The position numbers were made by a program, and so were the translations under genes. The notes below the pieces were generated by a model. The model ran no database searches and was not told the DNA's origin. It saw only the letters and a program-made list of their open reading frames with translations. From Acetobacterium sp. KB-1 (GTDB lineage: Bacteria > Bacillota > Clostridia > Eubacteriales > Eubacteriaceae), in NCBI RefSeq assembly GCF_003260995.1, contig NZ_CP030040.1, positions 3,023,176 to 3,087,175 of the forward strand: a stretch of DNA of 64,000 bases, given 5' to 3'. Within the stretch, counting starts at the first letter, position 1. Each line of letters starts with the position of its first letter. Of the stretch, positions 18,765 through 52,915 are shown in pieces.

Positions 18765-18793
18765 TTGACATTAGTAAAATTTAAGTCTATAAT
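18765..18793 (+). promoter_or_regulatory. Sigma-A promoter of the aromatic leader / DAHP synthase operon
   Basis: TTGACA at 18765-18770, 17-base spacer, TATAAT at 18788-18793: full consensus at both boxes. Transcription would start about 65-70 bases before the leader-peptide gene. Confidence 0.85.
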
Positions 18794-18865
18794 AAATCAA
18801 AATACACGTTGCAGTTTTTATGTTTAGTAGAAATTTGTTTTCTTATGTGTCCTGAGAGGAATATC

Positions 18866-18982
18866 ATGGAAGAGTTAAGAAGAAACTTAAATGAATATTA
18901 TTACGTTAACACCCAAAGCTATTGGTTCTTTAGCTTTGGTTATTTTGCGTACAATAAATTAAGTTCCTTTGAGAATCCATGA
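18866..18982 (+). CDS. Aromatic-rich leader peptide of an attenuator
   Basis: A 38-codon gene starting with ATG five bases after GAGAGGA and ending TGA. The peptide begins MEELRRNLNE and then carries YYY, YWFF, F, YF, Y and a final F: six Tyr, five Phe and one Trp in 26 residues. Clusters of codons for the end products of the following pathway are the mark of leader peptides in ribosome-mediated attenuation (known from E. coli trp, pheA and others). It lies between a consensus promoter and a strong terminator, all upstream of DAHP synthase and prephenate dehydrogenase. It was too short to be listed as an ordinary gene. Function is inferred from context. Confidence 0.85.
   Translation: MEELRRNLNEYYYVNTQSYWFFSFGYFAYNKLSSFENP
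18913..18939 (+). promoter_or_regulatory. Pause-type hairpin inside the leader-peptide gene
   Basis: CCAAAGCTA (18913-18921) pairs perfectly with TAGCTTTGG (18931-18939) around a nine-base loop. The hairpin covers the codons for Tyr-Trp-Phe-Phe, as expected for the first hairpin of an attenuator. Confidence 0.6.
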
Positions 18983-19026
18983 GAAATTTTTAGCGATACA
19001 GGTGTATTGAATAAAAGTTTATTTTT

Positions 19027-19058
19027 AGGAGACTTCTTAGGAAGTCTCCTTTTTTTTT
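19027..19058 (+). terminator. Attenuator terminator upstream of DAHP synthase
   Basis: Perfect ten-base stem AGGAGACTTC/GAAGTCTCCT (19027-19036, 19041-19050), TTAG loop and about nine T. It lies 45 bases after the leader-peptide stop. AAGTTCCT at 18961-18968, in the end of the leader gene, can pair with the left arm (AGGAGACTT, one bulge) and would then block the terminator. Confidence 0.88.
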
Positions 19059-19201
19059 CGCAAGACAAAAGCCAAGCGTCATGCTAGCAAATTGGTGGCT
19101 GTCTACGAATCACGGAAAATCAAGCGACCGATTTTCGGTGGTCTTCGGTGCACAGAAGATAAAAAGTGAGTGGTCAGTGAATAACAATAATGGAGGAAAA
19201 A

Positions 19202-20212
19202 ATGATAGTAGTCGTTAAACCCAACACAAATGAAGAAGATATCAAGAGGTTAATCAAAATGATTGAAACACAGGGACTGAGCATCCATTATTCAAAAGGT
19301 GTGGATCACACGATTCTGGGAATAGTAGGGGATACAACCTTGGCAGATGTGGAAAAAATCCGTTCGAATCGTATTGTTGAGAATGTCCTCAGAGTTCAGG
19401 AACCGTACAAAAAAGCCAATCGCTTATTCCATCCCGATGACACCATTATTAACGTTAAGGGCAGAAAAGTTGGCGAAGGCACCATTAGCATCATGGCTGG
19501 TCCGTGTTCAGTCGAAAGTGAGGAACAGGTTGTGGCGATTGCCAAAAGTGTAAAGGAATCTGGAGCTACCTTTCTGCGCGGTGGTGCTTTTAAACCACGA
19601 TCTTCGCCTTACGCATTCCAGGGCTTAGGTTATGAAGGGCTGGAGTTATTAAAAATCGCCAGAAAAGAAACCGGACTTCCAATTGTCAGCGAACTGATGT
19701 CACTTGAACATCTGCCAGCTTTTGAAGATGTCGACATTATCCAGGTCGGGGCAAGAAACATGCAGAATTTTGATTTGCTCCGGGAATTGGGGAAAATTGA
19801 CAAGCCTATTTTGTTAAAACGGGGGATGTCATCAACCATGCAGGAATTTTTGATGTCGGCCGAATACATCATGAAAGAAGGAAACGATAAGGTGATCTTG
19901 TGCGAACGGGGGATTAGAACCTTTGAAACGGCCACCCGAAACACCTTGGATATTAGTTGTGTCCCGGTACTTAAACAAAAAAGCCACCTGCCCATTATTA
20001 TTGATCCCAGCCATGCCACCGGGCTATCCTGGACCGTTGAAGCATTGACCAAGGCGGCCATTGCCGTTGGTGCCGATGGTGTGATGATTGAGGTCCACAA
20101 TAATCCCGAAGAGGCCCTTTGCGATGGGGAACAATCCATTACCCCGGAACAATTCCATAAAATCATGATTACAGTTAAAAAATACGCCGAATTTGAGAAT
20201 AAGGTGATCTAA
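19202..20212 (+). CDS. aroF: 3-deoxy-7-phosphoheptulonate (DAHP) synthase
   Basis: First enzyme of aromatic amino acid synthesis, condensing phosphoenolpyruvate and erythrose 4-phosphate. It is the AroA-I-beta type: an N-terminal ferredoxin-like (ACT-like) regulatory domain (about 1-70) is fused to the KDO8P/DAHP barrel (about 90-335), with MAGPCSVES, FKPRSSPYAFQG and KRGMSST typical of this class. The N-domain usually mediates inhibition by Tyr or Phe. I chose the ATG at 19202, since GGAGG at about 19192 lies between it and an in-frame upstream ATG (19190) that would overlap the ribosome site. The stop overlaps the tyrA start by one base. Confidence 0.94.
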   Translation: MIVVVKPNTNEEDIKRLIKMIETQGLSIHYSKGVDHTILGIVGDTTLADVEKIRSNRIVENVLRVQEPYKKANRLFHPDDTIINVKGRKVGEGTISIMAGPCSVESEEQVVAIAKSVKESGATFLRGGAFKPRSSPYAFQGLGYEGLELLKIARKETGLPIVSELMSLEHLPAFEDVDIIQVGARNMQNFDLLRELGKIDKPILLKRGMSSTMQEFLMSAEYIMKEGNDKVILCERGIRTFETATRNTLDISCVPVLKQKSHLPIIIDPSHATGLSWTVEALTKAAIAVGADGVMIEVHNNPEEALCDGEQSITPEQFHKIMITVKKYAEFENKVI

Positions 20213-21105
20213 TGAAAAACCGAGAAGATTCCATCGTTGGCTTTATCGGCCTGGGTCTGATGGGCGGTGCACTGGCCATGGGACTCAGGAAACAAGGCCC
20301 CAAAGAAATTTGGGCTTATGATTTAAGCCCGGCAGTGATTAAAACCGCCCGGACCCGGGGCGTGATCGATGAAGGCGTCTGGGATTCGGCGGGGCTTCAA
20401 AAAATGTTGCCCCGGTGTGATCTGGTCTTTATCTGTCTGACACCAATGGATACGCTGGCTTTTTTAGCGCTCTATATGGAAGATTTTAAACCGGGGGCGA
20501 TTGTTACCGACATTATTGGAGTAAAAGAAGTGGTCTTTAAAAACCTGGGCAATCTGTTACGCAAAGACATTGACTATATTCCGGGACACCCCATGGCGGG
20601 AAGTGAAAAAGAGGGATTCGGCGGGGCTGATGATCGCATTTTTAAGAATCGTAATTATATTCTCACCCCCTTACCGACCAATCAACCAGAGAACATTGAG
20701 TTGATCAGGGATATCGTAACCGATTTGGGATTTAACCACATTGTTGAGACCACCACCGAAATACACGATCAAAAAATAGCCTTTACTTCCCAGCTTTGTC
20801 ATGTGATTGCAGCGGCCCTGGTTGATTGTGAGGATGATCTCTCCATCACTGATTTTGAGGGCGGAAGCTTTGGTGATCTGACCCGGATTGCCATGATTAA
20901 TGCCCCCATGTGGACGGAGCTGTTTATGTGCAACCGCAAAAACTTGTTGGACCAGATCAAGAAATTTGAAACCAGTCTGGAAGCAATGAAAGAAATGATA
21001 AAGCAAGATGAAAAGGAAGAATTGATCGCACGGCTTAAATCAGTTCGCAAGAAACGCGTTGCCATGGGGGAAATCCGGGCGGCTAAAAACTTAAAAAATC
21101 TGTGA
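20212..21105 (+). CDS. tyrA: Prephenate dehydrogenase (TyrA)
   Basis: Oxidative decarboxylation of prephenate to 4-hydroxyphenylpyruvate, the step that commits to tyrosine. The NAD-binding loop is GLGLMGGALAMGL near the N-terminus. The prephenate dehydrogenase region includes GHPMAGSEKEGFGGA and a C-terminal helical dimerisation part. Length (297) fits the single-domain enzyme with no ACT or chorismate mutase fusion. It is translationally coupled (TAATG) to DAHP synthase, so both are under the aromatic attenuator. This pairing explains why the leader peptide is richest in tyrosine. Confidence 0.93.
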   Translation: MKNREDSIVGFIGLGLMGGALAMGLRKQGPKEIWAYDLSPAVIKTARTRGVIDEGVWDSAGLQKMLPRCDLVFICLTPMDTLAFLALYMEDFKPGAIVTDIIGVKEVVFKNLGNLLRKDIDYIPGHPMAGSEKEGFGGADDRIFKNRNYILTPLPTNQPENIELIRDIVTDLGFNHIVETTTEIHDQKIAFTSQLCHVIAAALVDCEDDLSITDFEGGSFGDLTRIAMINAPMWTELFMCNRKNLLDQIKKFETSLEAMKEMIKQDEKEELIARLKSVRKKRVAMGEIRAAKNLKNL

Positions 21106-21280: not shown

Positions 21281-21892
21281 ATGAAATTATGTAATCTGCC
21301 AGCTATTGGTATGAGAAACATAAAAACGGTGTTAGCAGTCTTTATCTGTGTGGTAGTATTTGCAATTATGGGACCGGAGTTCAATCCGCTCGTTGCTGCA
21401 ATTGCGGCCGTGATTACGATGGGACCGAGCATTGAAAATTCGATTGAAACGGGCTGGAATCGGATATTGGGAACCCTCTTTGGAGGTGTAGCGGGAATGT
21501 TGGGTATTTTTATTGCTCGTTTAATCCCATATCAATACGCCTATGTTTTCATCATTCCGTTAGGAATTATGGGACTGATTTATCTGTGTAATACAATTAA
21601 CAAGTCGGGTGCTATCGTTATTACCTGTGTGGTTTTTCTCATTTTAATGACCACCTATCCTCAGGATACGGGTACCTATATGCTGGCCCTTTTAAGACTT
21701 CTGGAAACGGTATTTGGTATCGTTGTGGCGTTTTTAATCAATCGCTTTATTAAATTGCCGGAATGTGATAAAAACCCGGATGAAAGCCAAACAGAGGCGG
21801 AAAAAGAGTTGGTCACGGTCGAAGAAAAACCGGACAGCGGTTATAAAAAATTTAAAGTGTCAAACCTGTTGTATATGATATTCAAACCCTAG
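21281..21892 (+). CDS. Aromatic acid exporter family (ArAE-like) membrane protein
   Basis: A 203-residue membrane protein with about five helices in the first 155 residues and a charged cytoplasmic tail. The segment 'GMRNIKTVLAVFICVVV' and the conserved RILGTLFGG motif match the ArAE_1/FUSC-like family, members of which are linked to export of aromatic carboxylic acids. It follows the DAHP synthase-tyrA operon but has its own operator-covered promoter. A role in exporting aromatic acids is plausible but unproven. A terminator follows. Confidence 0.75.
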   Translation: MKLCNLPAIGMRNIKTVLAVFICVVVFAIMGPEFNPLVAAIAAVITMGPSIENSIETGWNRILGTLFGGVAGMLGIFIARLIPYQYAYVFIIPLGIMGLIYLCNTINKSGAIVITCVVFLILMTTYPQDTGTYMLALLRLLETVFGIVVAFLINRFIKLPECDKNPDESQTEAEKELVTVEEKPDSGYKKFKVSNLLYMIFKP

Positions 21893-22841: not shown

Positions 22842-23375
22842 TTATGCCTGAGCCGAAGTTGCCGAAGATACCTGATTTTTAACCGATAGGGGTAATGCTT
22901 TAAAGACAAGGGCCGCAATCAGGGCATTGATTCCACCCACCAGAGCCAGGGGAAACATCATTGCAATTACTCCGGGCCAGGTTAACATGGGGATTAAAAG
23001 CGGCGAACAGAGTAAAAGTAGGATCGGGCCGTTGCAGATAGCGGCAACGATAACGTTGACGATCAGGGCGACGATTTCATTTGCGGCCTTTTTAACAAAA
23101 ACATAAGTATACCAGGTGGCCACCATGATCAGCCCCATCCCCAGACCAATAGCAAGGTGAACGGGTAGGGTCATTGGGAATCCTGAGGTAAGCGCGGTTA
23201 AAAGATGACCGATAATAGCAATAATTGCGCCAGCCAGAGGTCCCATCAACAGGGTGCCCAAAAAGGCCGGCAGTGAATCGAAGGCAATCGTGCCAAAAAC
23301 TTTTAACTGGGCTCCTACAAAAGAGAGGGCAATTAAAAGCGCCATAAAAACGAGTTGTCGCGTGTTGATTTTCAT
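22842..23375 (-). CDS. cblT: Alpha-ribazole transporter (CblT, ECF S-component-like)
   Basis: Small (177-residue) integral membrane protein with five or six hydrophobic helices, beginning MKINTRQLVFMALLIALSF, in the style of ECF transporter S-components. Context gives the substrate: it is directly downstream of a cobalamin riboswitch and upstream of the CblS-like kinase, so it probably imports alpha-ribazole, though other cobalamin precursors are possible. The chosen ATG has AAGGAG seven bases upstream; a longer frame to 23405 lacks one. B12 is vital in acetogens for the corrinoid protein and methyltransferases. Confidence 0.78.
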   Translation of the reverse strand: MKINTRQLVFMALLIALSFVGAQLKVFGTIAFDSLPAFLGTLLMGPLAGAIIAIIGHLLTALTSGFPMTLPVHLAIGLGMGLIMVATWYTYVFVKKAANEIVALIVNVIVAAICNGPILLLLCSPLLIPMLTWPGVIAMMFPLALVGGINALIAALVFKALPLSVKNQVSSATSAQA

Positions 23376-23451
23376 GTGATACTCCTTAATTTTATTATAA
23401 AGCATTTCTATGGCGATGAAAAGAAAATTTGGATAGGTCGATTTAATTAAA

Positions 23452-23648
23452 TAAAAAAGTTCACATCTAATTTAGATGTGAACTTTACCGTCGTCCAAAT
23501 GGAATCATTTCTGGCAGGTCTCCTGAGTCAGCTTCATCGCAGTTTGTCCCTTCCCGTGAGGTGGTCATGACTTGTGCTCGACTTTACAGTGGTGGGTCCC
23601 TACAGGATTTTAACCTGTTTCCCTATTCTCCTTTTTCAAGGCACCAAA
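23452..23648 (-). ncRNA. Cobalamin riboswitch with its terminator
   Basis: On the minus strand the element starts near 23648 (GGTGCC), passes GGGAAACAGG, CACTGTAA and the B12 box region GCTGACTCAGGAGACCTGCC (23532-23513), and ends in a perfect 12-base hairpin (23458-23469 with 23473-23484, loop of three) plus a T run. These are diagnostic cobalamin aptamer parts. Bound B12 should favour the terminator and shut off cblT-cblS. Confidence 0.95.
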
Positions 23649-23911
23649 AAAGCTTTATTTACTTGAGCAAATAATAGCACATCAGAGATCAATTTGTCAA
23701 ATTGAAATTGTAAATAATTAAGGGAAAGAAAAAGTAAAGTAATCGTTAAAAGATGATCGCGTCGAGGGTAAATTCTAGCTTAAATCAACCGCGAAAAAAA
23801 AGCGGCGATAAAAAAATCGCGGCCAAATATTGCTGCTATAATTCATTGTATTGAATCCTTGGAGTATGGTACAATGCTTTACAAAATGACTAATACTAAG
23901 AGGTATAAAAA

Positions 23912-52624: not shown

Positions 52625-52915
52625 AAAAAACCTGTGATGGTGGAGTAAAGTCAGCGGCGCATTTAAAGCGAGTTAGGGGTGGTGGAAGCCTGATAAAAAG
52701 CGGACTGGCATAATGGGCACTTGAGGGTGTGAGGAAAGGGCAGTGCCTGAGTATTTCACAACGTTTCATCAGCGTTATCAGATGGCAAATGTGATGGCAT
52801 TTGTTTAGTTAAGTGCGCAAACCGAAAGCGGTTTTGCGAATAAAGGTGGTACCGTGGGCTATTTTGACTCATCCTTTTATTGTAGCAATACAATAAAAGG
52901 ATGGGTCTTTTTTTG
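52625..52915 (+). ncRNA. T-box riboswitch controlling the PaaK-family gene
   Basis: Stem I features AGTA (52643-52646) and GCGAGTTAGGGGTGGTGG are followed by a candidate specifier region ATAATGGGCAC, the T-box AAAGGTGGTACCGTG (about 52843-52857) and a perfect 15-base terminator (52870-52884 with 52889-52903) plus T run. Uncharged tRNA would prevent termination. The specifier is best read as TGG (Trp) after the usual AA; ATG (Met) overlaps it and fits the T-box N = U better. Confidence 0.88.

Follow-up and report, generated by a model that had tools for sequence, protein, structure and literature searches.

A leader-peptide attenuator predicted to sense tyrosine and phenylalanine supply before the DAHP synthase-tyrA operon of Acetobacterium, and its relatives in the Clostridia

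How does a member of the Clostridia adjust the entry into aromatic amino acid synthesis to the supply of the end products? Ribosome-mediated attenuation is a textbook mechanism, known from the trp, his and pheA attenuators of enterobacteria and from the multivalent leaders of ilvGMEDA and thr, and DAHP synthase in Escherichia coli is mainly under repressor control. Clostridia are thought to rely mostly on other switches; T-boxes, each of which reads one tRNA, are expected for such genes. Here, we analyzed a stretch of 64,000 nucleotides (the window) from the 3.99-Mb, single-contig genome of Acetobacterium sp. KB-1, in which the region before aroF-tyrA had been proposed to encode an aromatic leader peptide that controls the operon by attenuation (the original prediction). 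As judged from the sequence and from folding models, this region very probably governs aroF-tyrA by ribosome-mediated transcription attenuation, with the supply of charged Tyr-tRNA and Phe-tRNA as the signal.

The elements of the leader (Table 1) lie between a gene for a Cys/Met-metabolism PLP-enzyme on the opposite strand and the aroF-tyrA pair. The consensus promoter, the 38-codon open reading frame (ORF) with its ribosome site, the hairpin and the terminator were all recovered where the original prediction had placed them, and its counts of Tyr, Phe and Trp codons are exact. With 12 of 12 matches to the consensus, the promoter ranks top of the 24 promoter-like sites found between 17.5 and 24 kb of the window. 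A short ORF with a Shine-Dalgarno (SD) sequence thus lies between a promoter and the first gene, an intrinsic terminator precedes the structural gene, and the end-product codons in the ORF (Tyr and Phe, not Trp) are clustered, conserved and present beyond chance. The ORF listed for DAHP synthase begins at an ATG (19190) that overlaps the ribosome site (GGAGGA, 19192-19197) of the in-frame ATG at 19202, which is therefore the likelier start. On the 3' side of tyrA follows an ArAE_1/FUSC-like gene (aromatic acid exporter family; 21281-21892, + strand), possibly an aromatic exporter adjoining the aromatic operon, and a cobalamin riboswitch (23496-23663, - strand) is found before the gene for an ECF-transporter substrate component (22842-23405).

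Table 1. Features of the leader region and the operon, in window coordinates
Feature	Position	Strand	Details
Promoter, sigma-70-type	18765..18793	+	TTGACA 18765-18770, 17 nt, TATAAT 18788-18793; predicted from consensus
Shine-Dalgarno of leader ORF	18854..18860	+	GAGAGGA; purine-rich site retained here in genus alignment
Leader-peptide ORF	18866..18982	+	38 codons, peptide MEELRRNLNEYYYVNTQSYWFFSFGYFAYNKLSSFENP*; 6 Tyr, 5 Phe, 1 Trp
Control region, aromatic codons	18896..18955	+	YYY...YWFF.F.YF.Y
Hairpin over second aromatic cluster	18913..18939	+	CCAAAGCTA-N9-TAGCTTTGG; putative RNA polymerase pause hairpin
Antiterminator 5' strand	18961..18976	+	AAGTTCCTTTGAGAAT = end of leader ORF; genus consensus helix
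Spacer hairpin inside antiterminator	18986..19018	+	genus alignment: two pairs changed on both sides
Antiterminator 3' strand	19021..19035	+	ATTTTTAGGAGACTT; overlaps left arm of terminator; genus consensus
Intrinsic terminator	19027..19058	+	10-pair stem 19027-19050, loop TTAG, T8 19051-19058; -14.8 kcal/mol
DAHP synthase, aroF-type	19202..20212	+	ferredoxin-like domain + DAHP_synth_1
tyrA, prephenate dehydrogenase	20212..21105	+	start overlaps DAHP synthase stop (TAATG)

In the mechanism that we propose, RNA polymerase would start near position 18800 and probably pause after the hairpin over the second aromatic cluster, allowing the first ribosome on the leader ORF to catch up. When charged tRNA-Tyr or tRNA-Phe is short, this ribosome would stall in the aromatic codons of the control region, leaving the 5' strand of the antiterminator free to pair with the 3' strand and to take the left arm of the terminator, which would let transcription read through into DAHP synthase and tyrA. 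When both tRNAs are plentiful, the ribosome would reach the stop codon (18980-18982) and cover the 5' strand, so that the terminator would form and transcription would end. The original prediction had described the same alternation between a stalled ribosome that frees the strand and a terminating ribosome that covers it; the in silico folding of 68 leaders and a consensus antiterminator for the genus lend it backing.

To follow the leader beyond this locus, we used a detector that reports ORFs preceded by an SD sequence, with at least eight Phe, Tyr or Trp residues within 22 codons, at most 400 nt upstream of a DAHP synthase. The 186 DAHP-synthase loci comprised those of the genus and the family, 80 named loci, and order- and class-wide draws; before counting, L106, L107, L127 and L147 were dropped as duplicates and L098 as a paralogue, while L150 and L177, which share one divergent region, were both kept. 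An aromatic short ORF was detected at 103 of the 186 loci, as opposed to 2 of 186 for the antisense of the same regions and 3 of 288 for the regions upstream of other ORFs at the named loci, so that the leader is not a product of chance; dinucleotide shuffles gave 1 in 930. One of the three positives before other ORFs precedes a shikimate kinase gene of Pelosinus, and the control thereby turned up another gene of the shikimate pathway unasked. There, on the minus strand of the locus from Pelosinus fermentans JBW45 (L065), a second Tyr/Phe leader (MITFLTKRFQNQYFSFFSWGYFYSAGYFGMYQMNRLLNENLNTSR) and a terminator-like hairpin lie upstream of the gene that starts near + coordinate 5765.

The 83 loci without a leader by the detector include some in which one can be seen by eye, namely L097 (leader beyond the 400-nt limit), L104 and L105 (each with a ribosome site outside the list used) and L034. 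Among the counted loci, the detector was positive for 24 of 28 in the family, where at least three of the four misses (L097, L104, L105) are detector failures, for 38 of 80 in the named set, and for 38 of 67 in the class draw, which consists of 65 of about 130 listed places, mostly the best-scoring, minus one duplicate and plus three order-level loci. A terminator hairpin accompanies 97 of the 116 loci with a score of at least 6, two of the 97 overlapping the ORF. A homologous peptide is encoded at all 17 loci fetched from the genus (two further genomes of the genus have no DAHP synthase match), and the leader is found at all seven loci of two further genera (L099-L105). Related loci had been expected to conserve the composition of the peptide and not its sequence; the leader is aromatic throughout the genus, and among the wider set of leaders Tyr and Phe interchange and the remaining peptide diverges. 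Named bearers are Clostridium species, Oscillibacter and Dysosmobacter metagenome-assembled genomes (MAGs), a Ruminococcus, Alkalibacter mobilis, Candidatus Epulonipiscium and Pelosinus. The leader is not peculiar to acetogens, being found in many Clostridia. It also occurs in one MAG each labelled Spirochaetaceae (L005) and Fusobacteria (L029), cases that may be due to binning error. Just upstream of pheA in the Acetobacterium sp. KB-1 genome, no aromatic-rich ORF of at least 30 codons was found.

The dependence of the terminator on ribosome position was assessed by partition-function folding up to the terminator loop, with the ribosome represented by removal of the 5' part of the RNA (A-site codon plus 13 nt, an approximation). 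From the 103 leaders with a score of at least 8, 89 have a terminator clear of the ORF, and 68 of these were retained by an ungapped identity filter that leaves some close relatives (e.g., L001, L082, L091 and L096, all of one genus); the tests were repeated under peptide-identity filters of <50% (53 leaders) and <40% (42 leaders). Across the 68 leaders, the left arm of the terminator is predicted to be paired upstream with a mean probability of 0.71 when the ribosome stands in the middle of the aromatic codons and of 0.24 when it stands at the stop codon, as compared to 0.49 without a ribosome. The arm is thus still captured to a considerable degree in the absence of translation, and a protector structure that would then favour termination does not stand out clearly from the folds. 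The resulting fall between the two ribosome positions (0.47) exceeds both that of shuffled leaders (0.15; Wilcoxon 5e-12) and that obtained with arms swapped between loci (0.25; 1.6e-9), with 61 of 68 leaders above their own swapped mean. Below 50% identity, the fall is 0.45 versus 0.16 for shuffled leaders (2.6e-9, 49/53) and 0.26 for swapped arms (1.8e-7, 45/53), and below 40% identity it is 0.47 versus 0.16 for shuffled leaders (1.2e-10). The smaller fall with swapped arms suggests that the end of each leader and the arm of its terminator evolved in step, and for the leader family as a whole the antiterminator excludes the terminator in silico in a manner that depends on ribosome position. 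Taken singly, only 38 of 68 leaders combine a value above 0.6 in the stalled state with one below 0.3 once the ribosome has reached the stop codon; with 20 shuffles each, p 0.05 is attained by 29 of 68. The window's own locus goes from 0.67 stalled (0.58 without a ribosome) to 0.20 at the stop codon, and 2 of its 20 shuffles show as large a fall; folding of this locus alone is suggestive only.

The end of the leader ORF had also been predicted to pair with the left arm of the terminator, and AAGTTCCT (18961-18968) can indeed form eight pairs with AGGAGACTT (19027-19035), with one bulged A. In the stalled state of a genus alignment of 15 sequences, this pairing is the core of a 14-pair helix between the two antiterminator strands, which encloses a small hairpin and in which GAGAAT (18971-18976) also pairs with ATTTTT (19021-19026). 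The outer helix is fully paired in all 15 sequences, and AATTAAGTTCCTT in its 5' strand is invariant. Pairs changed on both sides are seen within the genus in the hairpin that this helix encloses and in the terminator, but not in the outer helix itself, where 11 of the 14 pairs never vary; within the genus, the antiterminator is therefore consistent with the alignment rather than proven by it. Folded by itself, the sequence of the window's locus favoured another pairing (from about 18970, -16.2 kcal/mol), which was set aside when the 15-sequence consensus returned to strand 18961-18968. A simple duplex calculation gave -5.6 kcal/mol for this locus, as against -5.8 for shuffled and -6.8 for swapped strands, and thus no advantage for the native pair. 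For the 68 leaders, it gave a mean of -8.6 versus -7.1 swapped (p 0.001) and -7.5 shuffled (p 0.007), only 20 of 68 leaders falling within the best tenth of swapped arms. This test is weak perhaps because the loop and the enclosed helices are left out of the calculation.

The hairpin that the original prediction had drawn across the aromatic codons is present, but it does not overlap the antiterminator strand and looks like a pause hairpin rather than a protector. In the window, it has a stability of -10.9 kcal/mol, while synonymous recodings average -3.1. Of the 68 leaders, 37 have a G[YF][FLW] motif preceded by enough codons; the most stable hairpin that ends close to the Gly codon of this motif has a median of -9.4 kcal/mol versus -3.2 for synonymous recodings (Wilcoxon 1.8e-8), 23 of the 37 leaders surpass their recodings singly (p <=0.05), and the difference persists among the 29 leaders below 50% identity (-9.4 versus -3.4; 5.5e-6). 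When the search was confined to hairpins ending within a few bases of the motif, 14 of 35 ended exactly at GG and the others 1 to 4 bases further; when it covered the whole ORF unconfined, 28 of 37 leaders had their best hairpin end 2 to 6 bases past the motif's first G. The dinucleotide 11 nt after the second G is TG in 23 of the 37 leaders. For leaders without a GYF motif, a hairpin null based on pooled codon usage was confounded by GC content and was left out of the evidence for this reason.

In the his and trp pauses of E. coli, about 11 nt separate the hairpin from a pyrimidine with a G after it (hairpin-stabilised pause geometry), and the elemental pause consensus reads GG...TG-Y-G. We propose that the control-codon hairpin is an RNA polymerase pause signal embedded in the ORF, with a putative layout of a hairpin closing at GG, YTATTTT-NNN and T-G, in which GG and T are 11 nt apart. 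In the window, T 18950 is followed by A, so that the exact T-G fit is lost; C18948-G18949 fits the elemental consensus, and the pause is predicted at about 18948-18950. The conserved GYFxC motif would then owe its conservation to the RNA pause signal and not to the peptide. A leader-peptide switch in Bacillus subtilis is reported to need polymerase pausing with a pause hairpin (PMC6851288).

Other known regulators of such genes were sought with covariance models and protein profiles. At the leader locus, no Rfam family reached its gathering score, and the five weak matches are unrelated. The T-box model gives no match at the leader, and in the same genome it gives 15 matches, nine of them above the cut-off. 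The match before trpE (79.3 bits) is below the cut-off and has the GGTGGTACCGCGG core; others precede pheS, a PALP-family gene (trpB-like by eye), ABC substrate-binding genes and AMP-binding ligases. Elsewhere in the window, a T-box match at 52625-52879 (+ strand; 89.9 bits, Rfam cut-off 93) precedes an AMP-binding, phenylacetate-CoA-ligase-like gene, and a second gene of this type in the genome (L113) also has a T-box match. Control by TRAP was discarded, as the genome has 0 PF02081 matches (B. subtilis, used as the control for this search, does match) and the longest run of spaced (G/U)AG repeats in the leader is 1. A scan of 40 of the 70 loci scoring below 6 against Rfam returned one tRNA and one T-box, the latter in Desulfosporosinus nitroreducens (L068, 2664-2918), where it stands before DAHP synthase in the place at which many Clostridia have the leader peptide; on sequence grounds, this is an exchange of sensing systems.

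Which amino acids the leader reads is best seen in the composition of the 68 leaders. Phe makes up 15.9% and Tyr 12.5% of residues (28.4% together), and both occur in 68 of 68, while Trp accounts for 34 of 2526 residues (1.3%) and is present in 31 leaders and absent from 37, which points to Tyr and Phe as the residues that the leader family reads. This agrees with the content of the operon (DAHP synthase and prephenate dehydrogenase) and with the genomic T-box pattern. Of the Tyr/Phe/Trp sensing originally envisaged, the Tyr and Phe inputs are therefore supported, and the Trp input is not supported at the level of the family. A truly tri-aromatic attenuator, with W20 as the third sensor, could draw on the one Trp codon kept at 17 of 17 genus loci and on the fact that DAHP synthase also feeds Trp synthesis. 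The rarity of Trp in the leaders as a whole, the replacement of the Trp site by YYYG in five loci of the nearest other genus and the separate T-box match of trpE make this reading doubtful, and within the genus the single conserved Trp codon may add a third input.

The conservation of non-aromatic residues, above all a Cys found at motif+4 in 22 of 37 leaders, when Cys as a whole makes up 76 of the 2526 residues, is what could be expected if the GYFxC peptide itself stalled the ribosome on a free aromatic metabolite, as TnaC does in its nascent-peptide arrest in response to Trp. The interchange of Tyr and Phe, the divergence of the rest of the peptide and the lack of the motif in 46 of 103 leaders argue against such arrest, and RNA accounts better for the conserved residues, given a hairpin more stable than in recodings and a T-G in constant position, so that we regard it as very unlikely. 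An aptamer riboswitch for aromatic compounds with an incidental ORF would account for a structured leader that ends in a terminator and folds better than its shuffles (z -5.4), and candidate aromatic riboswitches have been proposed from Streptococcus agalactiae and Lactobacillales (PMC4448216). Distant leaders, however, resemble one another in having an ORF with an SD sequence and many Tyr and Phe codons, and together with the Rfam result this leaves an aptamer with hardly any credibility. Hardly more can be said for a small functional protein (e.g., membrane or trans-acting) that is aromatic by coincidence: the ORF is conserved and translatable, but the window's peptide has no Pfam or NCBIfam match, its composition is aromatic and not generally hydrophobic, and the end of the ORF fits the arm of its own terminator better than those of other loci, which together render this idea extremely improbable. 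Attenuation governed by charged Tyr-tRNA and Phe-tRNA remains the reading we prefer.

Attenuators of enterobacteria resemble the leader described here in having end-product codons in a leader ORF, an antiterminator and a terminator, and their pause hairpin and, in some cases, multivalent sensing have putative counterparts here; the present one belongs to another phylum and would place DAHP synthase under a Phe and Tyr pair. T-box leaders likewise read the supply of charged tRNA, whereas a leader ORF can read several tRNAs. Leader-peptide attenuators are reported before hisS/hisZ in bacilli (PMC2965389), his operons in the B. cereus group and some Eubacteriales and Erysipelotrichales (PMC9413887), and ilv-leu in Staphylococcus aureus (PMC5794164); these are likewise leader peptides where T-boxes would be expected, serving other amino acids and operons. 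The closest published case in the literature searched is uORFC-13-1 before aroF of Acholeplasma, a Phe-codon uORF with a terminator just downstream and a 3-deoxy-7-phosphoheptulonate synthase gene, for which attenuation was proposed (PMC8632094). Its 24 examples come from Acholeplasma and environmental sequences only and have "at least one" Phe codon (PMC8632094). The clostridial leader differs in its long Tyr and Phe clusters, its pause-like hairpin and its presence in many clostridial families, a distinction that is drawn from the published description. A Tyr/Phe leader is not mentioned in the accessible parts of a Clostridioides difficile start-site map (PMC7438776) and a T-box survey (PMC2494555), and no description of one before aroF in Clostridia was found in the open-access literature searched. 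The suggestion that such a leader was undescribed in this group accordingly stands for Clostridia within that literature, next to the Phe-codon uORF published for Acholeplasma. As far as that search extends, the Tyr/Phe leader in Clostridia is new, its mechanism is known, and its breadth is surprising.

On a wider scale, we lean slightly toward the view that Tyr and Phe leader attenuation is a main and old clostridial control of the entry into the shikimate pathway. It would extend to Pelosinus, a member of the Negativicutes in which a leader of this kind stands before shikimate kinase as well, and possibly to Spirochaetes and Fusobacteria, with about half of the leaders carrying a built-in, conserved, hairpin-stabilised pause signal that would explain GYFxC. 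If this is true, sensor codons, pause and switch would all be encoded in one stretch of RNA. That one leader ORF would read two tRNAs at the shared first step offers a reason why no T-box is found here, in contrast to trpE, a branch gene with a single product, which has a T-box match. For this large group of gut and industrial anaerobes, the leader would provide a testable rule on how the decision to make aromatic amino acids is taken, an obvious engineering target for aromatic production in acetogens, and a natural case in which to study the coupling of transcription and translation in Clostridia.
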